Positions 40,395 to 57,432 are shown, numbered from the stretch's first letter. The stretch: 64,000 nt of DNA from Thermoguttaceae bacterium (GCA_029975295.1 JARKPK010000127.1:1-64000), one strand, 5' to 3'. Notes: generated by a model from the letters alone, not told the origin. Program-made: numbers and translations.

Positions 40395-43300
40395 GATTTG
40401 TCAACGCACCCACCTCCGCTCAAGGGTCATGATCGGTTGCGCTGTCGCGTTGTCGGCCGCCCTGTTGGCGCCCTTGACACCGGCCGCTGCCCAGGCGCCG
40501 GCCGTTGCTCAGGCGCCAGCGCCGCCAGTCAATGCGGAGAAGCCGCGCCGCGAGTTGTACGTTCCCTATGCCGATCTTCACATTCTGCTCGAGAACCAAC
40601 CGCGCCGCGTCATGCTGCCCCGCAAGCAGTTCGACGAACTGCTGCAACAGGCCGAGCAAGCCGCCAAATCGCGAGCGCCGCACAGCGTTCTGCCCTTGGC
40701 CGCCGAATACGATGGGAAGATCGAAGATCAGCGGGCTTCGATCCGCGCCAAGCTGACGATCGACGCTCTGCACGAAGGATTGCAGGTGGTTCCGCTCGAT
40801 CTGGGCGAAGTCGGCGTTGTCTCGGCAACCATCGACGGCCGACCGGCCGCACTGGGGCGATTGCCCGACGGTCGCGTCGCCGCCGTAGTCGAGGGACCGA
40901 AGCGGCGCGTCTTGGAGCTTGAGCTGGTTTCCTCGTTCGAGATCACCTCGGCTCATCAGGTGTTGCAGCTTCGACTGCCGCGGCCGCCGGCGGCCCGCAT
41001 GCAGTTGGTCGTGCCCGGCGACGTCGAGTTGAAAAGCGGCGCGGCCGTTCTCAGCCGCCAAGTGCAAGCCGATCCGCGGCAAACCCGGTTCGAACTCATT
41101 CCGGCCTCGGCCGACTGCACGCTGGTGTTCACGCTCAACAGCCACCTGAAGCAGACCGAATCGGTGCTGACGGCCAGCGGCGTGTACCTGCACGAAGTGA
41201 CGCAGGGCTACGAACGGATTCACGCCACCGTTTCGTTCCAAGTTCTCTATCGGGCGGTCGATCAACTCCGGTTGGTCGTTCCCGCTGGTTTTGAAGTACA
41301 AGAGGCGTCAACACCGTTGTTGGCCCGATGGGAGGTTGTGGCGGATCGGGGCCGGTCGATGCTGGTTGTGCGGCTGCGCGAGCAGACCACCGAACCGATC
41401 GTGCTGAATGTGACCGCCGTGCGCACCCCGGCGGTGTTTAACGAATGGACCGCATCGCGATGGGAACCGCTCGACGTGGCGGCGCACGTCGCCGTGGTCG
41501 GCTTGCTGTTGGAAGACCGCGTTGCCGCCGTTCGCCTGGAAACCGCCGGCCTCACGCCGATCGATGTCGAATCCTTGCAAGTCGCCTTGCCGGCCAGCTT
41601 GTTGCGCCCGGCCCCCGGCATGCCGCTGCTGCGGCCTGTGGCGGCATGGTATGCCGCCCCGGCAGCCTATCGCCTGGCCGGCCGATTCGAAAAACCGGCC
41701 GGCAAGATCGCCGCGAAGACGAATGTCCTCTTGGTCCTCGATGAATCGCGGCAGGAGGCTATCGGCGGCTTCACCGTGGTTCCGCGGCACGAGCGGCTCT
41801 TTGCCATCGATTTTTCATCGCCTTCGGGCTGGACGGTCGAATCGGTCACCGGCCCCGACGAGCAGCCGCTGGCCTTCGAACGCTATGACGCGGCCGAGGG
41901 GGCGGGGCGGATTCATGTGCGATTGCCCTCCGGCGTCGCTCCCGACACGGCCTACACGTTGCACTTCCGAGCCACGAGCGTGCCCGCCGGCTGGCTCCAG
42001 CCTTGGGACCAACGTACAGTGGCCTTTCCGCGTTTTGCCATTGTCGAGCCGCACGCCGCCGAGCGAACCGCGGCGATCGACGATGTCGGCGCCATCGCTG
42101 TCGAGCCGCGAGGCGATTTGGTGATTCGCCCCGAAAAACTGGACAAACTGCTTCCGCTCGACCAAGCCGAGCGAGCTCAATACGGGCTGGGCGAGGTGGG
42201 CGAAGGCCCCGCCTATCGCTACGACAACGCTGTTTATCAGGCGGAGTTCGCGGTCACCCGAGCTCAGCCCCGCGCAGTTGCTCGAACCATCGCCTTCTAC
42301 AACGTCAAACCGAGAGTGTTGACCTTCCACGGCGAACTGATCTACACCATAGAAGAAGCCCGCACACGGCGATTGCGATTTGCGCTGCCCCAAGACACGC
42401 CCACGCTCTTGTCGGTTAGCGGACAGGACGGCGTGGAGATCGAAGAATTTTATAGCCGCGACGGCGAGAACAACCGCGAGTGGACGGTTCTCCTCAAGCA
42501 GCCGCGCCGCGGCGTCGTGCGATTGGCGATCGACTTCGACCGGCCGATCGCAGAAGAAGCGGATTCTCTGGCGCTTCCCAAGTTGTCGGCGTTGGATGTA
42601 GCGTACCAGTCGGGCCTCACGGCCATCGAGGCCGATCCTCTCCTCCGCGTGGCTGTGAAAACCGAAGCCCGCACGGTCGATGTGGGCGAGTTGTCCGAAG
42701 CCGAGTACCAACCCGGCCGCCGGCTGCTGGGCGCGTACGGGTTCAGCGGCGCAGCCCCCGAATTCCAACTGTCGCTGGCCCGCGACCCGGCCTTGCCCAT
42801 TCCCGAAGCGCTCGTGGGCAAAGCCCTCCTGATCACGCAGCTTTCGGCTGAGGGCGAAGCCCAGAACGAAGCTGTTTTTTCGCTGCACGCCAAAGTGTTG
42901 TCGGTCGAGATCGAGCTGCCCGGGCAAGCCGACTTTTGGGCGGCCACGGTCGACGACGAGCCGATCAAGCCGCAACGGCTTGGCGCGAGGGTTCTGCTCG
43001 ATTTGCCCGGGGCGCGTCGGCCGACCCGCGAACTTCGGGTGGTTTACGCCGCTCGGGTCAACCCCGTCGCGATGCGCGGCACCGTGGACTTGCCCGCCCC
43101 GCGGCTATTCTGCGGTCTGACGCGCGCCGCGGCGGGCCCTGCCGACAAGGCGCCCGCCGGAGAACAGGTGCGCGCACGCGAGGTTCCGCTCAATCAACTC
43201 GTTTGGCAAGTGCGATTGCCCGCTCAGTACCGCCTGAGCGGCTATCACGGCACGCTAACCGCGCTCGATATCGATCGGCCGCGTCCCGCTGCCATCGGTT

Positions 43301-46300
43301 TGGCCGAAGCCATCTGGTTCTTGGGCGGCGGAGTCGGATCGGGTCTGTACGCCCCGGCCTCGCGGGCCGCCCGCGAATCTGCCAGCGTCGCATCGCGGCG
43401 CGGCGCTTGGGGCAAGCATGCCCCGGTGGCCAGTCGAGAATTGGAGGAATCCTTCCGATTCGACGATTCACGAAGCGCCCTTGAGCCCGACGGCCGCGAA
43501 ATGGGCGACACGAAAGCCGAAGGTGGAGCAATGGCCGACACTCCGGCTGCTGAGCCGGCCCAACCGATGGCTCCGCCCGCGATGAAGCCGGCCAACGGCA
43601 TGATCGTTAGCGATTTGGAGATTGCCGAGAAGGCCAAGGAACTGCGCGACGCGAGCACGCCAACGGCATCGCCGGCGCCGCGGCCCACACGACCTGCGGA
43701 TTCGTTGCGATCCGATCACGATCTCGACAAGGCCATGGCGGATGCGAAGTCGCAGGCCGTGGAGGAACCCAAACCGGCGACCCGCCAGAGCGGCATGAAT
43801 GGCGAATCGCTCGATCGGCGACGGAAGGATTCGCTGCAAGGCATTCGAAGTCTGCGCATTCAACTGGCACAGGCCGGCGGCGAACAGTCGCAGATCGAGT
43901 TCCGCAGCTTGGGCGGCAACCCGCAACTCGACTTGGTGCTGAGCAACAGCGAACGCTTCTCCTTCCTGGGCTGGGGCCTCTTCGGCGCTGCCGTACTGTG
44001 GGGGCTCTGCCGCATTCAGCGTCCAGCGCGCAGCAAAACCATGTTCGTCTTCGGCTTGGCAGTCGCCACTACGATCGTGGCCGTGCTGGTGCGCGATGTC
44101 GCGATCGTGGAACTGGCGAATTTTGTGTTTCACGCCTCATGGACGCTGGCCCTGCTTTATATCGCCATTGGCGCGGCGTTATGGCTGGGACGCAAGCTGA
44201 TCGGCCTATGGCAAAAGCTCTTTCGGCAAGCCGGCGAGGCGGCGCCCGTTGGAGCAACGCCGGCGGCTTCGACCGTCTCGGCCGTAATGACGGCAGTCGT
44301 CGTTGCCTGGGCGTTGCAGGCCCGGGCGGCCGACGACCACGCGCCGCCCCCGCCCGTGGCCGTGCCCGACGATGTGATCATCGTACCCTACGAACCCAAA
44401 GACGATACCGCACCGGCGGTGGGCGACAAAGTATTGGTTCCCTATGCCGAGTACGAGCGTTTGCGAAACCAAGTACTGGCCAATCAACGGGCGACCGAGA
44501 AGAAACCACCGCTTCCCTACGCCTTTGCCGGCGGAGAGTATCGGGCCACGCTCGGCACGGACGAGCACCTGACGTTCCAAGGCCGCTTCACCGTCGAACT
44601 CTATACGGACCAACTGACTGAAATTCCGCTGTCGCTCTCCGGCGGCGTGTTGGCCGTCGCCCAAGCCGATGGCAAGCCCGCTCGCATTCGAATGGTCGAA
44701 CCGCGATCGGCCGAAGCCGTTCCGATAACGGCGAACCAACCGAATCAGCCGGCGGCCCAGCAATCGATGCCGCAGCAGGCTGTCGTCCCGCAAGCGGCAA
44801 ACGCGCGGCCGGCGCCGGCCGCGCCGATCGTCGTGCTGTATCTCAGCGGGAAGGGCAAGCATGAGCTGTCGATGGAAATTCGCATGAAAACCGCGAGGCA
44901 AGGCGGTTGGCGGTCGATCGAGGGCGTTGTTCCCTCGGCGCCGGCCACCTCGCTGGCGCTCAGCGTGCCCAAGTCGGGTACGGAGCTGCGGCTGGGCCAT
45001 GTCAGCGATCGCCGCAACTACGAAGTTGATCGCGACAACTACACGCTGGTGACTGCCGTGGGCGCCGATGGCGCGGTGAAGATCGCTTGGCGTCCCAAGG
45101 TGGCCGAAGCCCAAGTGGACCGAAGCCTGACAGTCGAATCGACTTCGGTTCTCGACGTCGAGCAGGAAGGCGCTCGGCTGACCTGCCGCGTTTCGCTCCA
45201 ATTCCGCCGCGGGCGGCGCGACCGTTTCGAGTTGCTCGTTCCGAAAGACTACCTGATCGAGTCGGTCCGAGGCCCCAATGTTCGCGGCTGGCGGCTGGGC
45301 GCCCAAGGAGACGCGGCGGGCGATCGGGCGGACGCCAAGACAGCGGTCCGACCCGTCGAAATCGAGTTGCTCAAGCCTGCCGAAGACTCGGAGGAAATAA
45401 CCGTCGTGTTGTGGAAGGCCGCGGCAGGACCCGGCGGCCAAGCCATGGAATGGGCCGTGCCCTATGTCGTCGTTCCCGAGGCGGCGTTGCACGGCGGCAC
45501 GGTCAGCATTCGCCGCAGCCCTTGGCTCGACTTACGGACTACGGCCAAAAGCGGCGTCACTCGCACCGATGCCGACCCGAAAACCGCCGAGCTGGCCGGC
45601 GATGCGGTGCGGCAGCGTCCGTGGGCGTTGCGGCCGTACGAGGCGTATCGATTCGTCGGCGTGCCGTTCGACCTGAAACTTACGGCCGCGCCGATCACGG
45701 CCGAATACTCCGCCACGGTTCAATCGCTGGTGAAGATTGCGGCGTTCCAACGGACTTTGGAATCGCGAATTGAAATCACGCCCAAGGGACGCCCCCTGTA
45801 CGTCGCTGAGATTCTTCTTCCCGAAGGCTTCGTTCTCGACGAACTGCGTGCGCCGGGCGTGAGCCATTGGTCGATCGCGGCCGATGGCCCGCGGCCTCGG
45901 TTGTCCGTTTTTTACGCCCAGGGAAGCGATGCGCCGCAGGCGATTGTTGTTCAAGGCACATTGGCGCGCGAGACTCCGCCGCCCGAGTTGCCGCTGCCGC
46001 AAATCGAGGTCGTCGCGGTGGCCCGCCAGCAAGGCGAAATCGTCATCCAGGCGGATCCGGCCTACGGGATTGACGCTGTCGATCTCCAGCAAGCCGAGGT
46101 TCGCCCGCTGGCCCGCGCCGCCGGTTGGCTCAAACCGCAACAGATGGCCATGGCGCGGCTGAACATCAGCTACCAAAACGCCGCTTATCGCGGCAAGTTG
46201 CGGCTGACGGCGCGAACCCCATCGGTATCGTGCGAAACCATCTCCAATGTTCGGATCACCGGGCGGGCAATCGAAGAAACCATTTTGCTCGATTACAGCA

Positions 46301-48510
46301 TTCAACAGGCCGGCATCCGTCAGGTGAAGTTTCAGCTTCCGCCGCAAGCGGCCGGGTGCCGAGTGCGCGCCCCGATGATTCGCCAGAAGAAAATCACGGG
46401 CGAGCCCGGACAACCGATCGACGTTGAGATCGAGTTCCAGGAAGAAATCATGGGCCGACTGCTGGTGATCGTCGAGAACGATCGGCTGCTCGAGCCGTCG
46501 GCCGTTCACTCGGCGCCCATTCCGCGGGTGGAAAACGCCCGAGTCGTTCGACAATATGTCACCCTAGAGGCTTCCGGGCGTGACGAAGTCGAAGAAGTCG
46601 GGCCGCTCAAAGGGGCCGAGCGGCTCAGCCGCAACCTCGCGGAATACCGATTGCTGGCCGCCCGTTTGCCCGGCCGATTGGATCAGGCCTATTTGATTCG
46701 CGGCGACTCGCCCGACGCACAACTCCGTTTTCGCACCAAAAAGCGCGAAGCCGTGCAAACCGCCGGCGCGCGGATACTGTTGGCCGAGACGTTGTTGATG
46801 ATGGATGCCGCCGGGGCCTATCGCGCGCGGCAGTCGTACCGCATCGACAATCAAACCGAGCCGTACCTCGATGTGGACCTGCCCGAGGGCGCCGTGCTGT
46901 GGACCGCTGCGGTGGCCGGCGAGCCGGTCAAGCCGTCGCGCGGCCCATCCGACGCTCCGTCGCGGCGCGCCCGGGTGCCGCTGGTGAAGACGGCCGCCGG
47001 CGATCTCGATTATCAGGTGGTGTTCACCTACGGCGGCCAAATGCCGGCGATCAGCGGCATTGCGCCGATCAACTTCCCGCTGATGCGGGCCGTAGGCCTT
47101 AAGCCCGAATCGAGCGTGGTGCAGCTCTGCGTGCCCAAGCAGTTCCGTTGGCTCCGCTTTTCCGGCACCATGCGGCAAATCGAAAGCGAGAGGCAACTCG
47201 CTGGAGAGTACGAGAACTACTACGCCAAACAATTGGAAAACCTGAAGCAATCGCTCGCCAGCGGCGACTCTTATTCGCGGGTCCGAGCGGCCAATTCGTT
47301 GCAATTGTGGCAGATGCAGGTCGCATCCGGTGCGCAACCGGGTGCAGCCGGACAAAGCGCGGCGCTGCAAGAACAGCTCCGCGAATACATCGACGGCACG
47401 TCGCAAATCGTCGCCCTCGATGACGTTGATGCGATGGCCCGCAACGACAACCGGCTGCAATTGAACAACTCGTTCGCCGAGCAGCGCAACGACCGAGCCA
47501 AGAATGTGGTGCAAGGCGTCGGCTCGAATTGGGATGTCGCCCCGACAACGCCGCAATCCCCCGGTTCCGGCAGCAAAAGCAATTTCAACGCCGGTTGGTT
47601 CGAAACGAACAAGCTGGCGCAGGCCGTGCCGCCAAGCGACGCTCCGGGCGAGGGCAACTATCGTCCGTCGAGCGGTGAGGGGGCGGCGAAGGCGCCTGCT
47701 CAGGCCGGCGGCCAAGTTCTTTGGGGCGGCAAAGGCGAAGGCAGAGGCAGAGGCGAAGAATTCAAGAACCCCGAGGTCGCTCAGGGCCGCGCCAAAAAGC
47801 GGTTGGCCGAGATCCAACAAGAACAGCAAATGGATCTGAGCAACGTTCAGCAACCTCAGTCGCGGGCCGCCGACGAGCAGAACCTTCAGCGCTACAACGA
47901 GCGCCTCCAAAAAGACCAAGGCCGGCAGATCGCCCAACAAATGGCCGACTTCGGCATCAATGCCGCTCCGAGCAACCAACCGCTCGGGCCGCCGGGCGGA
48001 ATGCCCATGGGCGGCGGAGTCGGCGGCTTTGGGCGCGACGTGGCGAAGGAACCCGCAACGGAATCGGAAGAAGCGTCGGTGCTGACGGTTTCCCACGCGA
48101 CGGGCGATGCGCTCGGCCTGGCCAGCTTGGAATTGGCCATGCCCGAGATCGACCCGAATCGCTACGACGTGTTCCGCTTCACCACCCCGCTGGGGCAAAC
48201 CGAACTGACCGGCTGGGCCGTGTCGCGCGAATGGACCCGAACGGGCAGCCACCTCGGCCTGACGGCGATGGTCGCGCTGCTCGCTTGGCTCGCCATCAGT
48301 CTGGTGCTCGGCGGGGCAGGGCGATGGATCGTCAGCCCGGCCGGCGAAACGGCGATGATCGTCGCCGGTTTGGTCATGCTGATTTTCGGCCTGCTGCCGG
48401 TCGCCGGCGTGCTGATGATGGTGGTCGGCGCCGTCCGAAAGCTGGCCCGAGCCATTCGTCGCTGGTTCTCAAGACGCAATACGCCGGTCGAGGCGGAAGT
48501 GGTGCTGTAA
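40387..48510 (+). CDS. giant exported membrane protein, PY-module family, tandem fusion (2707 aa)
   Basis: No named family is recognised. Unit 1 has a signal peptide (about 15-35, AAA-Q), the module start ELYVPYADLHILLE (residues 56-69) with VMLPRKQFDELL, a long beta-rich ectodomain, and membrane helices at about 1191-1209, 1219-1236 and 1250-1268. A fourth hydrophobic segment (about 1299-1312) ends ARA-ADD like a signal peptide. Unit 2 then repeats the module (IIVPYEP at 1331, VLVPYAEYERL at 1349) and an ectodomain. A Gln/Asn/Gly-rich linker (about 2280-2560) and C-terminal helices (2625-2643, 2656-2680) follow. It overlaps the previous gene by 8 bases. Role unknown; probably envelope structure or surface sensing. 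Confidence 0.8.
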   Translation: MNKICQRTHLRSRVMIGCAVALSAALLAPLTPAAAQAPAVAQAPAPPVNAEKPRRELYVPYADLHILLENQPRRVMLPRKQFDELLQQAEQAAKSRAPHSVLPLAAEYDGKIEDQRASIRAKLTIDALHEGLQVVPLDLGEVGVVSATIDGRPAALGRLPDGRVAAVVEGPKRRVLELELVSSFEITSAHQVLQLRLPRPPAARMQLVVPGDVELKSGAAVLSRQVQADPRQTRFELIPASADCTLVFTLNSHLKQTESVLTASGVYLHEVTQGYERIHATVSFQVLYRAVDQLRLVVPAGFEVQEASTPLLARWEVVADRGRSMLVVRLREQTTEPIVLNVTAVRTPAVFNEWTASRWEPLDVAAHVAVVGLLLEDRVAAVRLETAGLTPIDVESLQVALPASLLRPAPGMPLLRPVAAWYAAPAAYRLAGRFEKPAGKIAAKTNVLLVLDESRQEAIGGFTVVPRHERLFAIDFSSPSGWTVESVTGPDEQPLAFERYDAAEGAGRIHVRLPSGVAPDTAYTLHFRATSVPAGWLQPWDQRTVAFPRFAIVEPHAAERTAAIDDVGAIAVEPRGDLVIRPEKLDKLLPLDQAERAQYGLGEVGEGPAYRYDNAVYQAEFAVTRAQPRAVARTIAFYNVKPRVLTFHGELIYTIEEARTRRLRFALPQDTPTLLSVSGQDGVEIEEFYSRDGENNREWTVLLKQPRRGVVRLAIDFDRPIAEEADSLALPKLSALDVAYQSGLTAIEADPLLRVAVKTEARTVDVGELSEAEYQPGRRLLGAYGFSGAAPEFQLSLARDPALPIPEALVGKALLITQLSAEGEAQNEAVFSLHAKVLSVEIELPGQADFWAATVDDEPIKPQRLGARVLLDLPGARRPTRELRVVYAARVNPVAMRGTVDLPAPRLFCGLTRAAAGPADKAPAGEQVRAREVPLNQLVWQVRLPAQYRLSGYHGTLTALDIDRPRPAAIGLAEAIWFLGGGVGSGLYAPASRAARESASVASRRGAWGKHAPVASRELEESFRFDDSRSALEPDGREMGDTKAEGGAMADTPAAEPAQPMAPPAMKPANGMIVSDLEIAEKAKELRDASTPTASPAPRPTRPADSLRSDHDLDKAMADAKSQAVEEPKPATRQSGMNGESLDRRRKDSLQGIRSLRIQLAQAGGEQSQIEFRSLGGNPQLDLVLSNSERFSFLGWGLFGAAVLWGLCRIQRPARSKTMFVFGLAVATTIVAVLVRDVAIVELANFVFHASWTLALLYIAIGAALWLGRKLIGLWQKLFRQAGEAAPVGATPAASTVSAVMTAVVVAWALQARAADDHAPPPPVAVPDDVIIVPYEPKDDTAPAVGDKVLVPYAEYERLRNQVLANQRATEKKPPLPYAFAGGEYRATLGTDEHLTFQGRFTVELYTDQLTEIPLSLSGGVLAVAQADGKPARIRMVEPRSAEAVPITANQPNQPAAQQSMPQQAVVPQAANARPAPAAPIVVLYLSGKGKHELSMEIRMKTARQGGWRSIEGVVPSAPATSLALSVPKSGTELRLGHVSDRRNYEVDRDNYTLVTAVGADGAVKIAWRPKVAEAQVDRSLTVESTSVLDVEQEGARLTCRVSLQFRRGRRDRFELLVPKDYLIESVRGPNVRGWRLGAQGDAAGDRADAKTAVRPVEIELLKPAEDSEEITVVLWKAAAGPGGQAMEWAVPYVVVPEAALHGGTVSIRRSPWLDLRTTAKSGVTRTDADPKTAELAGDAVRQRPWALRPYEAYRFVGVPFDLKLTAAPITAEYSATVQSLVKIAAFQRTLESRIEITPKGRPLYVAEILLPEGFVLDELRAPGVSHWSIAADGPRPRLSVFYAQGSDAPQAIVVQGTLARETPPPELPLPQIEVVAVARQQGEIVIQADPAYGIDAVDLQQAEVRPLARAAGWLKPQQMAMARLNISYQNAAYRGKLRLTARTPSVSCETISNVRITGRAIEETILLDYSIQQAGIRQVKFQLPPQAAGCRVRAPMIRQKKITGEPGQPIDVEIEFQEEIMGRLLVIVENDRLLEPSAVHSAPIPRVENARVVRQYVTLEASGRDEVEEVGPLKGAERLSRNLAEYRLLAARLPGRLDQAYLIRGDSPDAQLRFRTKKREAVQTAGARILLAETLLMMDAAGAYRARQSYRIDNQTEPYLDVDLPEGAVLWTAAVAGEPVKPSRGPSDAPSRRARVPLVKTAAGDLDYQVVFTYGGQMPAISGIAPINFPLMRAVGLKPESSVVQLCVPKQFRWLRFSGTMRQIESERQLAGEYENYYAKQLENLKQSLASGDSYSRVRAANSLQLWQMQVASGAQPGAAGQSAALQEQLREYIDGTSQIVALDDVDAMARNDNRLQLNNSFAEQRNDRAKNVVQGVGSNWDVAPTTPQSPGSGSKSNFNAGWFETNKLAQAVPPSDAPGEGNYRPSSGEGAAKAPAQAGGQVLWGGKGEGRGRGEEFKNPEVAQGRAKKRLAEIQQEQQMDLSNVQQPQSRAADEQNLQRYNERLQKDQGRQIAQQMADFGINAAPSNQPLGPPGGMPMGGGVGGFGRDVAKEPATESEEASVLTVSHATGDALGLASLELAMPEIDPNRYDVFRFTTPLGQTELTGWAVSREWTRTGSHLGLTAMVALLAWLAISLVLGGAGRWIVSPAGETAMIVAGLVMLIFGLLPVAGVLMMVVGAVRKLARAIRRWFSRRNTPVEAEVVL

Positions 48511-48610: not shown

Positions 48611-49396
48611 TCAACCGGCGAACAGTCCGCGCAAGGGCTCCAGACAATCACAATCGAAGACGTACTTCAGCGCGAAATGCGCGCCGATGACGATGAACAC
48701 CCATCCGGTAGCCTGCCGGGCGCCCCACTCGATCTTGCCCAAGGCGTTGTAAGCCTTCCCTACCGACTGGGCGCTATAAGCCAAGAGAAGCGCAACCAGA
48801 ATCACGGGGGTTGCCGTGCCCAAACCATAAACGCTGGGCAACACAACCGTGCTTGCCGGCAGCGCGGCCTCCGGAAGACTAATGCCCACCTTGGTCAACA
48901 CGGTGGTGATCGCGCCCGCCTCGGCGCCCATCATCAGGGTAATCAATCCGAAGAACCAAGCGGCCGATGTCGGACAGAACGACAGCGCGAACAGCGCCCC
49001 CAGCACGAGCGATCCCCAAACGCCCATAGCGTCGATCCGCTTCTGAATGCCCTCGGAAATCATCGATCCGCCGATGCTGATCTGGATCAGCCCCACCAAG
49101 AACATCCCCACCACCAAAAACAGCGGTGCCAGCACAATGTGCATCGACGACTGCAAGAACCGTGAAACGGCCGGAATCGATGCGGCCGTCATCACCAAAA
49201 ACACCGCCAAGCCGACATAAACCGCGCACCGCCCAACCGTGTAAAGCAATCCCGCGCCGATCACCGCCCGCGGGCTGCCCACCTTCCGCCCCACGTAGGA
49301 AACGGCCGCGATGTTCGTGGCCAAAGGGCATGGGCTAATCGAGGTCAACAGCCCCAGATACAGCGAAGCAAGAATATACAGAACGTAAGCGGCCAT
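48611..49396 (-). CDS. CcdA/DsbD-type membrane protein, ArsG-like
   Basis: The 261-residue protein has about six to seven helices of the DsbD/CcdA transmembrane fold. Two cysteines each precede proline, Cys23 in ISPCPLATN and Cys141 in SFCPTSAAW, matching the redox pair that passes electrons across the membrane in CcdA/DsbD. The SPCPLATN form is that of the group annotated as ArsG, described as an efflux permease for reduced aromatic arsenicals. So it is either an exporter or a thiol-electron conduit. It is last in the arsR-led unit, 250 bases after the second CxxC protein. The cysteines after the last helix (DCDC) are unusual. Confidence 0.78.
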   Translation of the reverse strand: MAAYVLYILASLYLGLLTSISPCPLATNIAAVSYVGRKVGSPRAVIGAGLLYTVGRCAVYVGLAVFLVMTAASIPAVSRFLQSSMHIVLAPLFLVVGMFLVGLIQISIGGSMISEGIQKRIDAMGVWGSLVLGALFALSFCPTSAAWFFGLITLMMGAEAGAITTVLTKVGISLPEAALPASTVVLPSVYGLGTATPVILVALLLAYSAQSVGKAYNALGKIEWGARQATGWVFIVIGAHFALKYVFDCDCLEPLRGLFAG

Positions 49397-49648
49397 CGTC
49401 GGGCGCCCTCTTGGCAGCTTCCAACGCCCGTTCTTTGTTGGAACATCGGTTCACCGCGCACTTTCATTGCGGCAGCACGCGACGATTCCCTCGCTGGAAC
49501 GAGCGCGTTGAAGCAATCCGTTGAATTGATCCCTCTCGCACATCCGCCCAGAATCACGCACAGTCGAAAGCCGCGCATCTTTGCACAATCGATCCATGCG
49601 GTTCTGTTTCGCGACACAATCCGTTACGAAGCGACGATTCGAGCCGGC

Positions 49649-50068
49649 CTATTTTAGCAACTCGCGGACGTTGCTTTGCACGTAGTCGAAAAAGGATTGC
49701 TTGTCGCGCACCTTCACCCAAATCTCCGTGAGTTTTCGCACTTCGGCTGCCTTATTCCCGTTTACGCGAACCACGACCAACGTGGGGCCTTCAACCTTGT
49801 AGCCTTTGGCTAGGGCATCGTTGGCCGGGTTCTGAAAATCCACATCGTGCAGTTCGACTTTGCCGCTTTTCATCTCTTCGGCAAAGCCTGTGCGCACGGC
49901 CTCTTGCGCGTAGCCGCCCATCTTCTGGCAGGTGGGGCAGCGCACCGTACGGTGGAAATACATAACCACCACACGGTCCGACGGCGGCTCGGCCGCTTGC
50001 AAAGTCGCCGTGTCAGCAAACGATAGGGCCGCAACAACCAAGAGAACACCAGCGTTGAACAATCGCAT
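49649..50068 (-). CDS. small exported CxxC thioredoxin-fold protein, ArsF-like
   Basis: The 139-residue protein has a signal peptide (residues 1-27, TLQAA) and then MYFHRTVRCPTCQK with Cys44 and Cys47. The short Trx-like domain fits the group annotated as ArsF (nitrophenyl-compound reduction subunit in arsEFG-type clusters). GGAGAG 7 bases before ATG 50068 decides the start over the ATGs at 50083 and 50086. The paralogue lies directly upstream and shares the YFHxxxRCPxC core, so the two may work as a pair like ArsE and ArsF. Likely periplasmic reductase or thiol carrier. Confidence 0.75.
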   Translation of the reverse strand: MRLFNAGVLLVVAALSFADTATLQAAEPPSDRVVVMYFHRTVRCPTCQKMGGYAQEAVRTGFAEEMKSGKVELHDVDFQNPANDALAKGYKVEGPTLVVVRVNGNKAAEVRKLTEIWVKVRDKQSFFDYVQSNVRELLK

Positions 50069-50125
50069 CGCTTTTCTCTCCATCATCTTCAGGACCTATT
50101 GAAAATCACCGATCGACGACAACCC

Positions 50126-50830
50126 TCACTCGGAAATAGGAATACGAGGCAACGGCGCGCCGGCCGGCGGATCTTCTTCAGGAATCGGTATGCCGGCCGG
50201 GGCGCGAAGCGGACTGGACGGGCTTGTCTGTGCGGGGCCCGGGGCCGAAACAGCGTCCGAATGGGCGTGGGGAGCCGCGCGATCGCCTGCGGTCGAAGCG
50301 AGCATGTCGCTGATTTCTTGTCTTACGAATGCAGCGAACTTCGGCGGATCGTCGTACAGGCCCCACACCTCGTCAAGCCGCTTCCAACGCTCGATTCGCC
50401 CCTGATTCATCTTCGCCAACACCACAACCGCCATCTGCACATCGAACATCTTGGCCATCGCTGCGGCGCCGGGCTTTTCATAATTGATCACCTCCCACGC
50501 GATTTTGCCATCGGCCAAAGGGCCGGCAAAGTCCTTCCGCACGACATCGTAGGCCTGCGACTCGATCGCCCGGCACGAAGGGCAACGCTGCTTTCCGTGA
50601 AAGTAATACACGATCAGCCCGTCGCTGAGTTCCGTCTGCGAAGCAGTATCGCCCTGAACCGCCAGTCCGCCGCCCTGCTTGCGAATCGCTTCGAGTTCCG
50701 CGGCGATCTTGACCAAACTGGGCTCGAGTTGCGAAGCGGCGTGCAAGTCAAGCGTTCGAGCGATCAAAACCACGATCGTCGCCGAAAACAGCGAGATCAG
50801 ACAGACCGCTACGGCATTCTTCAAATCCAT
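50126..50830 (-). CDS. membrane-anchored CxxC thioredoxin-fold protein, ArsF-like
   Basis: The 234-residue protein has one N-terminal helix (about 7-25) that is signal or anchor, then a short coiled segment, and the core YYFHGKQRCPSCRAIE with Cys83 and Cys86. After the Trx-like domain, which ends near residue 180, a Pro/Ala/Ser-rich tail of about 50 residues follows; this tail is absent from the smaller paralogue next door. GGGAAGGGAA lies upstream of the ATG. The active site faces the periplasm if the helix anchors it. Its partner genes (ArsG-like, cytochrome-like) suggest a role in reduction of an arsenic compound or of disulfides. Confidence 0.75.
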   Translation of the reverse strand: MDLKNAVAVCLISLFSATIVVLIARTLDLHAASQLEPSLVKIAAELEAIRKQGGGLAVQGDTASQTELSDGLIVYYFHGKQRCPSCRAIESQAYDVVRKDFAGPLADGKIAWEVINYEKPGAAAMAKMFDVQMAVVVLAKMNQGRIERWKRLDEVWGLYDDPPKFAAFVRQEISDMLASTAGDRAAPHAHSDAVSAPGPAQTSPSSPLRAPAGIPIPEEDPPAGAPLPRIPISE

Positions 50831-50896
50831 GATGTGAGTTCCCTTCCCTGCCCCGGCGCAAATCGTTGTCGAGCGATGATCGCGGACCGGCCGATG

Positions 50897-51292
50897 CTAC
50901 TCGGCCGCCAACAACGCCTTGCCCTGGGCAACCACAGTCGAAACCGCCTGTTGGCTGACGGTCGTTTTGCCTTTCTCGAAACCCAAGTCGCTCAGCCGGA
51001 TGTACGCGAATTGTTGGAAACCGGCGTTTTCGAGAGTCTTCTTGGCGCAATCGAGCGGGCAACCGTCGATAGCCAGGATAGCCTGGGCCGAACGTGTGGT
51101 TTCGACGATCCCGCTCACTCGGCCGCCGATGCCCGCCAGGCAGAACATTCGGCCGACGCCTTCGGCGGAAAGCTCCCGTGCAGCCAGGTCGGCCAACTTG
51201 CCCACATCCGCTGCGCCCGAGCAAGCAAAGACCAACTTCGGCGCGCTGCCGCACTGACACGAAACAGGCGAACCCATGCCTTGACTATCCAT
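50897..51292 (-). CDS. putative zinc-binding protein with DGC motif
   Basis: The 131-residue cytosolic protein carries six well-placed cysteines: C12-Q-C14, Cys24 in VFACSGAAD, Cys51, and the IDGCPLDC pair (Cys78, Cys82) that names the DGC family. These are annotated as putative zinc-binding proteins and recur beside thiol-redox and arsenic genes. GGGAGG 9 bases upstream picks ATG 51292 over ATG 51301 and ATG 51340. It may bind metal or metalloid through thiolates; the enzymatic role is unknown. It sits between the di-heme protein and the CxxC pair in one presumed transcript. Confidence 0.75.
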   Translation of the reverse strand: MDSQGMGSPVSCQCGSAPKLVFACSGAADVGKLADLAARELSAEGVGRMFCLAGIGGRVSGIVETTRSAQAILAIDGCPLDCAKKTLENAGFQQFAYIRLSDLGFEKGKTTVSQQAVSTVVAQGKALLAAE

Positions 51293-51394
51293 TGGCCACA
51301 TCCTCCCATTGTGCGTTGCTCTAGCCGTTGATTCGGCCATTGCGCCCGCCGTTGATTCGGCCGTTGAACGCAGGCAACTACGGCCGCCGAATCG

Positions 51395-52228
51395 CTACGG
51401 CTTCGGGTGTTTCTTATCGCCAAACTGATGACAAGTGGAGCATTGCATCTTGCCCATCGCGTCGGCCAATTCTTTCGGCCCATGACAATCGATGCACGCC
51501 TTGACCTCTGCCCGGACCGGAGCGAATTCGCATTTCGGATCGACGCAGCGGCGATTGAGCAACTCGACGACCTTCGCCGCCCCGTCGGCCGCCAACCGCC
51601 GGCAGCGTTCCTTCTTCTCAACGCTGAAGGCCTCGTTGCCCGACGCCTTGCTCCACTTCGCCACCGAAAAATGGCAAAGCACCGACCCGGCGACGCTCGG
51701 CACGGCCTCGGGCGCCCATTCGGGCTTCTCCGGCACGAAGGCGGGCAAGCTGGTGGTTTCGTACCACACGCACATCTCCGTGATCATCGCCTCGCGGACT
51801 TCTTTCGCTTTTTCGTGGCGGAACAATCCGATCAAGGCGGCCGCGCCGTTCACCACACCGCATAGGCTGCCAAACCCGCCCACGCCCCCTTCGCCGTATC
51901 TCATCATTTCCACCGGGAACGATCGGAACGGTGCGCCGTATCGTTCGGTCAACTGGCCCACAACGCTGCCGACCACCGCATACATGCAGCCGCCGTCGGG
52001 ATAGATGCGGTAGGCCGCTTTCGCCACCTCCTCCGGCTCTAGAGGCCGGTATTCCCAAGATGCCGCCGTCAACTCGTTGCCATTGCCAGCCGCCTTGTCT
52101 GTCGGCTTGTCGATCGCCAAGGCCACCGCAGGCAGTGTGGACGGTCGCCCGCAGCCGCCGAGCACGCCTGCGCCAAGCCCGGTGCCGATCACGGCCGTCC
52201 ACTGCCGACGCGACCATTCCCGTGCCAT
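51395..52228 (-). CDS. C-GCAxxG-C-C / split-Soret-like di-heme protein, exported
   Basis: The 277-residue protein begins with a Tat-like signal (SRRQWTAVIGTG) ending at Gly-Gly-Cys, so it may be a lipoprotein. The C-GCAxxG-C-C family core follows: DGGCMYAVVGSV, GFGSLCGVVNGAAALIGL and LCHFSVAKW. Two c-type heme motifs lie near the C-terminus, CIDCH and CSTCH, as in split-Soret cytochrome c precursors. It is therefore a periplasmic redox protein with cysteine and heme centres. ATG 52228 is chosen over a TTG at 52246. It links the cytosolic Trx and DGC genes to exported CxxC proteins in the cluster, fitting electron delivery to or from them. The electron partner is not shown. Confidence 0.8.
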   Translation of the reverse strand: MAREWSRRQWTAVIGTGLGAGVLGGCGRPSTLPAVALAIDKPTDKAAGNGNELTAASWEYRPLEPEEVAKAAYRIYPDGGCMYAVVGSVVGQLTERYGAPFRSFPVEMMRYGEGGVGGFGSLCGVVNGAAALIGLFRHEKAKEVREAMITEMCVWYETTSLPAFVPEKPEWAPEAVPSVAGSVLCHFSVAKWSKASGNEAFSVEKKERCRRLAADGAAKVVELLNRRCVDPKCEFAPVRAEVKACIDCHGPKELADAMGKMQCSTCHQFGDKKHPKP

Positions 52229-52423
52229 TCTTGCACCATTCAACAATCAGCTTGGAACCCGAATGAACGCACAACACCGCAACCGTCCGCCGGTCGAAAT
52301 CGGCACGCAACCACCGGCCGTGCAAGCGTTCCCGCTCCCCAACGATGTGCATGCAGCTTGTTGCCCATAGCAAATCAGGCAGCGGAGGCTGCATATTCAT
52401 CGCCAGCAACGGAACTCAAGCAA

Positions 52424-52657
52424 CTACTGCAACAGCTTCGCCGCATCCTCCGGCGTGAGTACCTTGCCGACGGATTTCACCTCGCCGTCAACAACCACCG
52501 CCGGAGTCACCATCACGCCGAATGCGATGATCTGATTGATGTCCGTCACTTTCTCCACCACGGCCTCGACCCCGGACGCGGCAACGGCCTGCTCCACGTT
52601 CTTCTTGAGCTGCTCGCACTTCGGACAGCCCGGGCCGAGAATCTGAACAAGTCTCAT
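52424..52657 (-). CDS. mini-thioredoxin (TM0996/MTH895-type redox protein)
   Basis: The 77-residue protein is a small thioredoxin/glutaredoxin-like protein with the active site PGCPKCEQ (Cys11 and Cys14) and the cis-proline in VMVTPAVVVDG. A GGAAGGAG ribosome-binding site lies 5-12 bases before ATG 52657. These proteins are cytosolic and often sit next to ArsP-like permeases, as here. It could give reducing equivalents to the permease, ArsC or the CcdA-like protein at the end of the unit. Confidence 0.9.
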   Translation of the reverse strand: MRLVQILGPGCPKCEQLKKNVEQAVAASGVEAVVEKVTDINQIIAFGVMVTPAVVVDGEVKSVGKVLTPEDAAKLLQ

Positions 52658-52806
52658 CAGTCGCTCCTTCCTTATCACACCATCGAGCACCAGTTTTCCT
52701 TCAAACTCATTTCGGCTCTTGGCGGCCGGGCCGTTCGAAAATCGCTTTTCGCCATACCGCGGAATCCGCCGCCCACCGACCACGTTGCACGCATTATGGC
52801 GAGTTC

Positions 52807-54129
52807 CTACGCGACGAACCAGCCGAAAATCATCCCCGACACGGCACTCATTAGTACCGTGAGCGAACAAAACGCGAACGTCTTCTTGAACCCGAGCACG
52901 CTGTAAATCACGGCGATGCTCGGCAACGAAAGGGCGGGCCCCGCCAACAGCAGCGACAGCGCCGGCCCGGCGCCCATGCCTAAACCGCGAAGGGCTTCCA
53001 GAATCGGAATTTCCGTCAACGTGGCGAAGTACCACATCGCCCCGATCAAGGCCGCGACCAGATTGGCGCCAAAGCTGTCGCCGCCGACCCACCGCGCAAC
53101 GATCTCCTCGGGAATCAACGCGCCAACGAACCCGGTAACGAACACCCCACCGAACAGCAACGGAATGATCGTCTTGGCAAATCCCCACGTTTGGCCGATC
53201 CATTCCTGCAATTCGCTGCGGTCGAACCAAGCGCCCACCATCAACAACGTGGCCGCCAAGCAGGCGAAGGAAGCCCACCATCGCTTCTGGTAAACCCATT
53301 CGGCCCATTCGTAGCCCTCGGGCGTAGCCTTTTCGCGGTTGACAATCTCGCTTGTCGCCATCGTCAATTTCTGGCCTTTCTTCAACCCGTCCACAGGCTC
53401 CTCGACCTGCACCCGAACCATTTCGGCCGTTTCGATCAACACGGCCACCTGCATCTTCGTGCCATCGGTCTTGGTGATCACCGTCTGACTCGGACTGGCC
53501 CAGTCGGCAAACACCAAGAACGCGATCATCGACGCAAAGAACGCAGCCGACTGCCAGAGCCGGCGTTTGGCCGGCGGCGGGTCGGGCAATTGCATGACGG
53601 CCGTTTGACGCTTCTCCTCGTCACCGCGAAACAGCGCGGCCATAATCAACCCGATGACCACGGCAAAGGCGATTGATCCGATCGCGCGGGCCAGCCCTAG
53701 TTCCAACCCCAGCACGCGCGCCGTTAGAAAGATGGCCATCACGTTGATCGCCGGGCCGGAGTAGAGGAAGGCCGAGGCCGGTCCTAAGCCCGCCCCCACC
53801 CGGTAGATGCCGGCGAACATCGGCAGCACACTGCACGAACAGACCGCCAACACCGTGCCGGAAACCGAAGCGACGGAGTACGCTTCGACCTTGTTCGCCT
53901 TCGGCCCCAGATGCCGCAACACCGCCTCCTTATTCAAAAACGCAGCGATCGCCCCGGCAATGAACATCGCCGGCACCACACAGGCCAACGTGTGGTATCG
54001 GGCATACCATTGCAGCATGTAGAACGCCTCCATAATGGCGTTCTGAATCCTCGGATCCGTGAAGTTCAAGAAGTAGGCCAGCAGGAAAATCACGCACAAA
54101 CCGGCCAGCAAACTCAGTTCTCGTTTCAT
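52807..54129 (-). CDS. ArsP-like permease (DUF318/YraQ family)
   Basis: The 440-residue protein has about eight to ten helices in two halves, each with the permease-family block. The first contains VCSCSVLPMFAGIYRVG, the cysteine-rich site where trivalent organoarsenicals are thought to bind, then GPAINVMAI. The second has FGANLVAALIGAMWY and GPALSLLLAGPALSLPS. A soluble loop (about 200-270) separates them. ArsP exports methylarsenite or aromatic As(III), while other members transport other substrates. ATG 54129 is preferred because GAGAAGAAG precedes it and residues 1-14 of the longer frame are polar without signal. It lies directly downstream of arsR and upstream of the mini-thioredoxin. 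Confidence 0.83.
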   Translation of the reverse strand: MKRELSLLAGLCVIFLLAYFLNFTDPRIQNAIMEAFYMLQWYARYHTLACVVPAMFIAGAIAAFLNKEAVLRHLGPKANKVEAYSVASVSGTVLAVCSCSVLPMFAGIYRVGAGLGPASAFLYSGPAINVMAIFLTARVLGLELGLARAIGSIAFAVVIGLIMAALFRGDEEKRQTAVMQLPDPPPAKRRLWQSAAFFASMIAFLVFADWASPSQTVITKTDGTKMQVAVLIETAEMVRVQVEEPVDGLKKGQKLTMATSEIVNREKATPEGYEWAEWVYQKRWWASFACLAATLLMVGAWFDRSELQEWIGQTWGFAKTIIPLLFGGVFVTGFVGALIPEEIVARWVGGDSFGANLVAALIGAMWYFATLTEIPILEALRGLGMGAGPALSLLLAGPALSLPSIAVIYSVLGFKKTFAFCSLTVLMSAVSGMIFGWFVA

Positions 54130-54252
54130 CTTCTTCTCAAGTTTGTTCTTACGGCCGATCTCGGCGGCCATCGCTTGCCGCGAAATCCACTTGCCTTCTC
54201 TTCGCTTGAGCTTGTTTATTTGGCCATTCTGCCAAGCACTTGCACAAAAAAA

Positions 54253-54585
54253 TCACGCCCTTCCGGCCGACGTCCCCCGCTGGCTTCGCGTGCTGCACTG
54301 CATGACCCCCTCGACGCAATCGAAGAAGTTCAACACGCAAGGAACCCGGAGTTTGTAAAACACCTGCAATCCGCGCTTCTCGTCTTCGAGAATGCCCGCG
54401 TTCTTCAAAACCGCCAAGTGCCGCGATACGGTGGACATGTCTGCACCGATCTTCTCGGTAAGTTCGCATACGCAGCATTCGCCCTTGGCGGCGAGTTCAT
54501 CAACGATGAACAACCGCGTCGGATGAGCCATCGCCTTGATGACCCTCGCCCGCGCTTCGTATTTGGCTTTCAATTCACTGTTCAT
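54253..54585 (-). CDS. arsR: ArsR-family metalloregulator, unit A
   Basis: The 110-residue winged-helix repressor carries ECCVCEL (Cys37, Cys38, Cys40) at the alpha-3 region, followed by the recognition helix MSTVSRHLAVL. Further cysteines at 83, 90 and 97 near the C-terminus may complete a trivalent-arsenic site unlike that of E. coli ArsR. Binding of As(III) or organoarsenic(III) should release DNA. It begins the unit of eight genes running to ArsG. ATG 54585 is preferred over a GTG at 54606. A palindromic operator and promoter lie 45-80 bases upstream. Confidence 0.93.
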   Translation of the reverse strand: MNSELKAKYEARARVIKAMAHPTRLFIVDELAAKGECCVCELTEKIGADMSTVSRHLAVLKNAGILEDEKRGLQVFYKLRVPCVLNFFDCVEGVMQCSTRSQRGTSAGRA

Positions 54586-54628
54586 CGTTGCTGCCCAACG
54601 GCACACAAATGTATCGGCCGAAACATAC

Positions 54629-54644
54629 TTGGCTATTTAGCCAA
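54629..54644 (-). promoter_or_regulatory. ArsR operator palindrome, unit A
   Basis: The sequence TTGGCTATTTAGCCAA is a perfect 16-base inverted repeat (TTGGCTA, TT, TAGCCAA). It covers the -10 region of the promoter at 54634-54663 and lies 44-59 bases upstream of the arsR start. I infer it is the binding site of the adjacent ArsR. Confidence 0.65.
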
Positions 54645-54663
54645 ATACCCACGGTTTTGTCAA
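54634..54663 (-). promoter_or_regulatory. sigma-70-type promoter for the arsR unit A
   Basis: On the minus strand TTGACA (54663-54658) matches the -35 consensus exactly, with an 18-base spacer to TAAATA (54639-54634) as a weak -10. The -10 lies inside the operator palindrome, so repressor and polymerase would exclude each other. Confidence 0.55.
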
Positions 54664-54917: not shown

Positions 54918-56009
54918 TCAACTCGGCTCGTGGAAATACGTGCGCCGGAAATAGAGCGCCACATTCACCAAACCGATCATCACCGGCACCTCGACCAGCG
55001 GACCGATCACGGCCGCGAAAGCGGCGCCGTGATGAATCGAGAACACAGCCACGGCCACGGCAATGGCCAGTTCGAAGTTGTTGCTGGCGGCCGTGAACGA
55101 CAACGTCGTCGTTTGCCCGTAGGTGGCCCCCACCTTGCGGCTCATGTAGAAACTCACCAGGAACATCACCACAAAATAGATCAGCAACGGCACCGCGATG
55201 CCCAAAACGTGCAAGGGCCGCGCCACGATCTTTTCGCCTTGAAGGCTGAACATCACGACAATCGTGAACAGCAACGCCAGCAGCGTAATCGGACTGATCT
55301 TCGGCAGGAACTTCTTTTCGTACCATTGGGCGCCCTTGGCTCGAAGCAGCACGAATCGCGTCAGCATGCCCGCCACGAACGGAATGCCCAAATAGATCAT
55401 AACGCTTTTGGCGATCTGCCCAACGGTGACATCAACCACCACGCCCGCCAACCCCAACATCGGCGGCAGCACCGTGATGAACAGGTAGGCGTAGAGGCTG
55501 TAGAAAAAGACCTGAAACACGCTGTTGAACGCCACCAAGCCGGCCGCGTACTCCGCGTCGCCTTTGGCCAAGTCGTTCCAGACAATCACCATGGCAATGC
55601 ATCGCGCCAAGCCGATCAGAATCAGCCCGACAAGATACTGCGAGAAGATCGTCTCCTCAGGCTCCAACGCGGGAAAGATCACGCCCATGAACAGCACGGC
55701 CAAGCCGAACATCAGGATCGGTCCGATCACCCAATTCTGCACGAGCGAAAGCCCCAAGACTTTCACATTGCGAAAGACGTCGGCCAACTCCTCGTACTTC
55801 ACCTTGGCCAGCGGCGGATACATCATCAGAATCAGGCCCAACGCGATGGGAATGCTCGTCGTTTCATCGAGTTTGAACCCGTCGATCCATTCGGCCGTTC
55901 CCGGCGACAACCGCCCCCACCCAACCCCAACGGCCATCGCTGCGAAAATCCACACGGTCAGATAGCGATCCAAGAAGGAAAGCTTGCCCTTCGTTGCCGA
56001 TTCACTCAT
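54918..56009 (-). CDS. acr3: arsenite efflux permease Acr3
   Basis: The 363-residue protein has ten predicted helices of the BASS/Acr3 fold. The essential cysteine is Cys137 in [19 protein letters not shown], and the conserved Glu sits in [17 protein letters not shown]. It exports As(OH)3 driven by proton exchange. ATG 56009 has GGAGAAGG 5-12 bases upstream and gives the usual N-terminus ([13 protein letters not shown]). It is third after arsR and arsC in unit B, 460 bases downstream of arsC, so co-transcription is likely but the gap is wide. Confidence 0.95.
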
Positions 56010-56470: not shown

Positions 56471-56908
56471 TCAGGGCAGATCTCCCCGCGACGAAAGCCA
56501 TTGGCGAATTCGTTCGTCAATCTGATCTCGCACTTTGCGAAACGCCGCTCGCTGCTCCTCGGGTGAACCGCTAACGGCGGCCGGATCGTCGAACGGCCAA
56601 TAATGCCGCTCGCCGGGCCCGGGAAAGATCCGCGGGCAGTTCTTCTCGACGTTCTCACAAACGACAAAAAGATAGTGAGCCGTCAACTTGCCGAGATACT
56701 CTTGTACGCTTTTCGACCTCTGCCCGGCGGTGTCAACACCCGCCTCTGCCATCACTTCGGCCACCATCGGATGCACCCGATCCGGTTCCAGGCCCGCACT
56801 GAACACATTGAACCGATCACCGGCGCGTTTGCGGAACAGCGCCTCGGCCATCTGGCTGCGCGCTGAATTGCGCGTGCAAAGAATCAGCACATTTTGTCGA
56901 TCAGCCAT
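56471..56908 (-). CDS. arsC: arsenate reductase ArsC, thioredoxin-coupled (LMW-PTP type)
   Basis: The 145-residue protein has the phosphatase loop LILCTRNSARS, where Cys11 is the nucleophile of CX5R. It also has the resolving pair Cys85 and Cys92 (VCENVEKNC), spaced like Cys82/Cys89 of the S. aureus pI258 enzyme. This identifies the thioredoxin-linked class of arsenate reductase. As(V) becomes As(III) for export by Acr3 next door. GAGGAT lies 7 bases before ATG 56908. It is cytosolic, and the length is standard. Confidence 0.95.
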   Translation of the reverse strand: MADRQNVLILCTRNSARSQMAEALFRKRAGDRFNVFSAGLEPDRVHPMVAEVMAEAGVDTAGQRSKSVQEYLGKLTAHYLFVVCENVEKNCPRIFPGPGERHYWPFDDPAAVSGSPEEQRAAFRKVRDQIDERIRQWLSSRGDLP

Positions 56909-57066: not shown

Positions 57067-57432
57067 TCACTCGCGACTTTGCCGCCGGCAGAGTTCATCG
57101 CGATCAATCTTGAGAATCCGCTCCAGCAATTTGTCGTCTTTGGCTGCCTCGGGCGAACGAGCATAGGCCTTGCAAACCACCTTGGCCACCGAGCGCGCCA
57201 CCGCCGGCGCGTCGGCCTCCGCGGCGCGATAGTGGATCCAACGGCCTTCTTTTCGGCTCTCGACAAGCCGGGCCGTGTGGAGAATCGACACGTGCTTCGA
57301 CACTGTGGACTGCGCCAGACCCAACAGCTCCACGATCTGGCACACGCACAGCTCCCTTCGACGCAACGCCCATAGAACCCGCACACGGTTCTCGTCGGCA
57401 ACTGCCTTGAGCGCAGCAATCAACTCTCGCAT
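57067..57432 (-). CDS. arsR: ArsR-family metalloregulator, unit B
   Basis: The 121-residue winged-helix repressor has the classic alpha-3 site RELCVCQIVELLG (Cys29 and Cys31) and the recognition helix AQSTVSKHVSIL, the E. coli-type As(III)/Sb(III) sensor layout. It differs from the unit A regulator in cysteine content, so they may sense different arsenicals. It precedes arsC and acr3. GTGAGGCG precedes the ATG. The candidate promoter and operator lie about 250 bases upstream, giving a long leader. Confidence 0.94.
   Translation of the reverse strand: MRELIAALKAVADENRVRVLWALRRRELCVCQIVELLGLAQSTVSKHVSILHTARLVESRKEGRWIHYRAAEADAPAVARSVAKVVCKAYARSPEAAKDDKLLERILKIDRDELCRRQSRE

Follow-up and report, generated by a model that had tools for sequence, protein, structure and literature searches.

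What would a unit of eight genes led by an ArsR-type repressor do with a di-heme protein, a DGC protein and several thioredoxin-like proteins? The question is raised by positions 48611-54663 of a 64,000-nucleotide stretch (the window) from the planctomycete Thermoguttaceae bacterium (GCA_029975295.1 JARKPK010000127.1:1-64000; genome 5.0 Mb, 190 contigs). Protein families, gene order, operator-like sites, conserved cysteines, export signals, CcdA homology and co-occurrence were computed. They point, with moderate confidence, to a role in arsenical detoxification for a transmembrane thiol relay that resembles CcdA/DsbD and is switched by ArsR; its periplasmic end member would be a heme protein exported by twin-arginine translocation (Tat). 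What is new here is the statistical tie of the split-Soret and DGC families to the arsEFG gene set, a set of conserved operator-like sites, and evidence for a CcdA-type ArsG.

Gene content of the unit and recurrence of its core

The eight open reading frames (ORFs) are complete, co-directional and all on the minus strand, in the order arsR2, permease, arsE, di-heme protein, DGC protein, arsFa, arsFb and arsG. An earlier reading of this DNA (the original prediction) had listed the same genes in the same order, and Pfam or NCBIfam scans back every one of the eight assignments. ArsR2, the repressor of the unit (54253-54585; NF033788 91.1 bits, cut-off 55), is followed by a PF03773 permease of the ArsP_1 family (52807-54171; 454 amino acids; 233.8 bits, cut-off 32.3) with invariant Cys64, Cys111 and Cys113. 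ArsE (52424-52657) is a mini-thioredoxin with a CPKC motif that matches TIGR00412 'MTH895/ArsE family' (99.6 bits, cut-off 62) and PDB 1ILO (E 2e-15), and is a cytosolic thioredoxin of the MTH895 type according to the PDB search. The split-Soret-type di-heme protein (51395-52228; PF09719 46 bits, cut-off 27; PDB 1H21, E 1e-40) and the DGC protein (50897-51340; PF08859 103.8 bits, gathering cut-off 27; six cysteines kept in 11/11) come next. ArsFa (50126-50830) has an N-terminal membrane anchor and an exported thioredoxin (Trx) domain with CPSC, and ArsFb (49649-50086) a signal peptide and an exported soluble Trx domain with CPTC; the two score 100 and 106.1 bits with NF040494 (cut-off 60). ArsG (48611-49396; NF040495 258.7 bits, cut-off 200) is a CcdA-like membrane protein.

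Since the mini-thioredoxin itself belongs to the ArsE family, the unit holds a complete arsEFG set. arsEFG was reportedly described by Chen, Zhang and Rosen in 2019, with Shewanella putrefaciens 200 as its source. As in arsEFG, known here through citations and NCBIfam names, proteins exceeding the NCBIfam cut-offs for ArsE, ArsF and ArsG are encoded in one operon under ArsR. The unit differs from it in having two ArsF proteins, one anchored and one soluble, in the insertion of the split-Soret and DGC genes between ArsE and ArsF, and in its large PF03773 permease; its function is predicted.

ArsG exceeds the NCBIfam cut-off in 25/392 genomes of the phylum and 24/398 genomes of the class. The surroundings of ArsG were annotated with profiles made from the window proteins. 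Among 57 planctomycete ArsG loci, ArsG is immediately preceded by ArsF in 53 and has ArsE nearby in 50, and ArsR accompanies it in 44 and the PF03773 permease in 39; several of the shortfalls are contig ends. The typical order is arsR-permease-ArsE-(extra)-ArsF-ArsF-ArsG, as in the window. Judged by its sequence families, the core gene set is of the known arsEFG kind; the phrase 'new arsenic-redox system', used in the original prediction, was thus too strong, the novelty lying in the recurrent split-Soret and DGC additions. One further cluster (L070:4402-6723) carries ArsEFG with glycine-cleavage-H-like, OsmC-like and two DGC genes in the permease's stead.

Split-Soret and DGC genes accompany ArsG

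The split-Soret family (NF047622, E <= 0.001) occurs in 7/398 class genomes, all seven of which are among the 26 that are ArsG-positive (E <= 1e-30; Fisher p 2e-9). The co-occurrence persists when counted by genus (split-Soret 6/187, ArsG 23/187; p 2e-6). The gene lies within the ArsG cluster in six of the seven class genomes, the window included, and L070 is a further member of the cluster type. The seventh genome's split-Soret gene and a second copy in genome G713 are next to ArsR genes, and acr3 is found on the same stretch. At L132:4056-8331 and L133:7068-10429, split-Soret genes outside an ArsG cluster are adjoined by ArsR and FtsX/ABC-transporter genes, and acr3 shares the stretch. DGC genes were found in 8/26 ArsG-positive and 0/47 ArsG-negative class genomes (p 1e-4) and, within the order, in 8/18 and 0/20 (p 9e-4); in five of the eight DGC-positive genomes the gene is inside the ArsG cluster. 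The presence of split-Soret and DGC genes beside ArsG is not due to chance. The original prediction had called for such a co-occurrence search, naming membership of the redox genes in an unrelated pathway as an outcome that would speak against it; that outcome was not seen, and the redox genes are tied to ArsG and the ars context. A sequence search of the heme protein against plasmids gave zero matches, and a tree of ten split-Soret proteins is mostly unresolved.

The heme protein contains a twin-arginine signal, a lipobox-like LGGC, and the motifs CIDCH and CSTCH, in agreement with the di-heme assignment made earlier. The twin-arginine motif and two CxxCH motifs are present in all full-length split-Soret family members seen, and the non-heme cysteines 81, 123, 185 and 209 are conserved in the family. 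The protein scores 178.5 bits with the NF047622 split-Soret cytochrome c model, under the equivalog cut-off of 400, and is thus a homolog rather than an equivalog. With the Desulfovibrio split-Soret cytochrome c (1H21) it shares full-length homology (E 1e-40), two CxxCH motifs, extra conserved cysteines and export; it differs in its ars cluster and its sub-equivalog score, and the twin-arginine signal was found here for the planctomycete family. A title cited in PMC5701242 speaks of a novel iron center in the Desulfovibrio protein, which would fit Tat export, and by analogy cysteines 81, 123, 185 and 209 may be ligands of such a center. For the Desulfovibrio split-Soret protein a fitness phenotype is not reported in PMC4215793. 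Literature searches for split-Soret proteins together with arsenic, and for a selenocysteine-assisted organometallic system, returned nothing useful.

The slot between ArsE and ArsF varies among loci. In some loci it holds the split-Soret or DGC gene; L066, L068 and L129 have there a Tat-exported protein resembling flavin mononucleotide (FMN) reductases, and L116 and L121 a Rossmann protein resembling ProC. At L042:7511-8821 and L045:8106-9374 the slot, with a DGC gene adjoining, encodes an exported Trx-MerB protein, a thioredoxin whose C-terminal part is a MerB (alkylmercury lyase) domain. The Tat-exported flavoprotein (PF03358), first suggested by L066, L068 and L129 as a second constant partner, was rejected in this role because, in a 73-genome control, its gene lay in the cluster in one of six positive genomes and one of the six was ArsG-negative. 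In G713 the slot between ArsE and DGC (L113:10719-10895) holds a remnant of the Tat flavoprotein, its signal peptide joined to its C-terminal part; as a split-Soret gene of this genome follows ArsG, one redox protein was possibly replaced by another.

ArsG, ArsF and ArsE as candidate parts of a thiol relay

The two cysteines of ArsG to which the original prediction had drawn attention, Cys23 and Cys141, are confirmed in the sequence; the first stands in SPCPLATN in 57/58 members and the second in FCPTSA in 58/58, whereas further cysteines are not conserved in most members. A search of the PDB with the single ArsG sequence gave a chance match alone (E 0.57), and a 29-sequence ArsG profile found one relative, CcdA (5VKV), at E 6.5e-5 over positions 7-220 of 229. 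In hhalign, ArsG also aligns with a Trx-CcdA fusion from a different planctomycete (probability 97, E 4e-10). These matches are evidence for ArsG being a CcdA-type protein, homologous to CcdA. An exported ArsF-like protein is encoded directly beside the Trx-CcdA fusion (L031:1495-3109), and the pair is likely an evolutionary relative of the ArsE/ArsF/ArsG set, a natural link of a thioredoxin and a CcdA-like channel with ArsF.

The ArsF family has CxxC in 76/76 members and a hydrophobic anchor or signal ahead of it in 75/78. A model of ArsFb, together with a fold search, predicts a thioredoxin fold (predicted local distance difference test score, pLDDT, of 95-98 over the domain), and its best PDB sequence match is the Trx-like domain of DsbD (E 0.0017). 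The unit thus shares with the CcdA/DsbD thiol relay a CcdA-homologous membrane protein with two near-invariant cysteines, a cytosolic thioredoxin and an exported Trx-fold acceptor related to a DsbD domain. It differs in that the parts are separate genes under ArsR, the second cysteine lies two residues out of register with that of CcdA and the heme protein is a possible extra acceptor; the likeness is one of how the parts may work. A transmembrane reducing relay, offered by the original prediction as an alternative, gains support from the sequence relationships of ArsG, ArsF and ArsE.

According to the published role, ArsE and ArsF act together as reductases on the nitro group of nitrophenyl arsenicals, and the trivalent aminophenyl compound so formed is exported by ArsG; the heme and DGC proteins would then be accessory. 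The NCBIfam names of ArsF and ArsG follow this role, and in PMC9144182, which refers to Chen, Zhang and Rosen 2019, ArsG appears as an efflux transporter and ArsE and ArsF as organoarsenical resistance proteins. For the present unit this role appears unlikely. Nitrophenyl arsenicals of the roxarsone type are synthetic, but the unit is widespread in planctomycetes of natural habitats, often with ArsA, ArsD or ArsM. ArsF is exported and therefore probably in a different compartment from ArsE, unless ArsG connects the two. Moreover, an exporter needs neither two near-invariant membrane cysteines nor an obligatory exported Trx partner.

The adjacent ars operon and the link to arsenic

A canonical arsR1-arsC-acr3 operon (57432-54918), absent from the original prediction, lies directly upstream of the unit on the same strand. 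It encodes ArsR1 (57067-57432; ELCVCQI motif; NF033788 89.9 bits, cut-off 55), an arsenate reductase ArsC of the low-molecular-weight phosphatase type (56471-56908; PF01451 69.1 bits, over the cut-off; TIGR02691 106.7, under the equivalog cut-off) and the arsenite efflux transporter Acr3 (54918-56009; TIGR00832 438 bits, cut-off 282.8). In other planctomycetes ArsEFG stands alongside ArsA (TIGR04291), ArsD (NF033727) and ArsM (NF008823), each above its cut-off. A plasmid of Prevotella nigrescens, outside the phylum, carries the order winged-helix regulator-arsF-arsG-thioredoxin-permease-arsC-acr3. The link of the unit to arsenic is strong because its core recurs in the 57 planctomycete loci, occurs elsewhere with ArsA/ArsD/ArsM, and is found on the Prevotella plasmid with arsC-acr3. 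Together with the neighboring operon and a conserved operator-like site, these contexts make the arsenic link firmer than the original prediction had stated. A search of the unit's own genome found no ArsM over the cut-off, and the unit therefore probably does not serve self-made methylarsenicals.

ArsA and ArsE occupy one open frame in another planctomycete (L118:1770-3794), as do ArsM and ArsD in two others (L036:3621-4925 and L041:11686-12945). These apparent fusions would connect the ArsA/ArsD pump machinery with ArsE and ArsM.

Could the arsenic labels be historical and the true substrate be a different soft metal(loid), such as Hg, Sb, Te or Cu, or an organometal such as organomercury? 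The permease shares the PF03773 family with the ArsP methylarsenite permease and is a predicted transporter, but among named NCBIfam models it comes closest to the efflux families SO_0444 (Cu/Zn) and SaoE, which it also resembles, and two related loci carry the exported Trx-MerB protein between ArsE and ArsF. The permease nevertheless remains under both NCBIfam cut-offs (SO_0444 118.6/300 bits, SaoE 104.2/325 bits), and the neighbors that recur are ArsA, ArsD, ArsM, ArsC and Acr3. A substrate other than arsenic is thus very unlikely.

ArsR2 and its candidate operators

The palindrome TTGGCTATTTAGCCAA (54629-54644), ahead of arsR2, is likely the ArsR2 operator, and a second palindrome, TTGGCCATTCTGCCAA (54220-54235), situated after arsR2 and before the permease gene, is likely another; both emerged from motif searches. 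The motif TTGGCN6GCCAA has two copies in the window, one on either side of arsR2, where 0.16 are expected, and one of 100 shuffles has two. Perfect matches to ATTTGGCN6GCCAA in the whole genome are found solely at the two sites flanking arsR2, and in about ten relatives arsR2 is flanked by related sites. Alignment shows that ArsR2 retains CVC and the C-terminal cysteines. The palindromes may thus serve arsR2 autoregulation and control of the genes from the permease onward. The canonical operon differs from the unit in having a separate arsR and no ArsR2 operator-like sites: a search of the window found zero copies of TTGGCN6GCCAA at the acr3 operon.

Proposed mechanism

From these data we infer co-transcription, the direction of electron flow, the heme protein as end member and the substrate. 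In the relay that we favor, the unit's own ArsR repressor would switch the arsEFG-type genes beside the canonical arsR-arsC-acr3 operon. ArsE would draw electrons from the cytosolic thioredoxin pool and hand them to Cys23/Cys141 of ArsG, from which they would reach the membrane-anchored ArsFa and the soluble ArsFb. In this lineage, ArsF may then reduce the split-Soret protein, which is exported by Tat and has two c-type hemes and, probably, an Fe-S center. The relay would serve to maintain periplasmic thiols in the reduced state, or to reduce an arsenical or an adduct of an arsenical with a thiol. Export of arsenicals would fall to Acr3 and the PF03773 permease, and metal handling in the cytosol to the Cys-rich DGC protein. 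A proposal for NapB (PMC8782879) has the coupling in the reverse direction, from a cytochrome to the thioredoxin-like CcmG, and periplasmic thiol-heme exchange is therefore plausible.

Several observations weigh against this relay. The first ArsG cysteine aligns with that of CcdA, but the second is offset by two residues. An AlphaFold model of ArsG from 10 close homologs reached a pLDDT of 47 and was left unused in favor of profile searches. Weak matches to PF03596, a family of cadmium transporters, are seen in six of 10 close relatives within the ArsG family; CcdA and true exporters belong to one superfamily, and ArsG is reported as an efflux transporter (PMC9144182). The majority of ArsG loci lack the heme protein, which is therefore optional, and in the wider phylum genomes G354 and G254 have split-Soret copies with no ars genes in view; the split-Soret family is therefore not exclusive to the ars context.

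A periplasmic thiol-repair line, which would re-reduce exported proteins blocked or oxidized when arsenite enters the periplasm, with the heme protein as electron outlet or client, would also use CcdA/DsbD-type parts. It would suit the acr3/arsC genes that adjoin the unit here and in several relatives, and the variable gene between ArsE and ArsF. Most loci, however, have a dedicated ArsR and permease, and the extra genes encode redox or metal enzymes, some with the MerB organometal-lyase domain, which suggests chemistry on the toxicant itself; we regard general repair as quite unlikely. Within the favored relay, the split-Soret protein might further be the terminal reductase of a thiol-to-heme path. 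ArsE, ArsG and ArsF would then feed electrons into a di-heme/Fe-S enzyme of the periplasm with an arsenical or arsenic-thiol species as its substrate. This extension is doubtful, but if true it would represent a new class of metalloid-detoxifying redox system and the first function for a split-Soret protein, and would turn ArsG from an exporter into an electron conduit.

If ArsG is a CcdA-type thiol conduit, arsEFG, now annotated as a nitroreductase and an efflux pump, would need reinterpretation, and an arsenic-devoted transmembrane reducing line would join efflux, methylation and oxidation as a resistance strategy. The strict co-occurrence with ArsG in the sampled class gives a concrete context to the split-Soret family, which has a crystal structure (1H21) but no function in the literature examined. 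The unit thus places an orphan family of heme proteins and the arsEFG genes, which are poorly understood, in one context.

Other features

On the plus strand, one ORF of 2707 amino acids with a signal-like N-terminus (40387-48510) converges on the end of arsG; an NCBIfam scan of it gave zero matches at E <= 0.01. At the end of an IMG/VR contig (L135:2-933), ArsF and ArsG genes lie beside terminase- and portal-like genes and may be either the host flank of a prophage or phage cargo.

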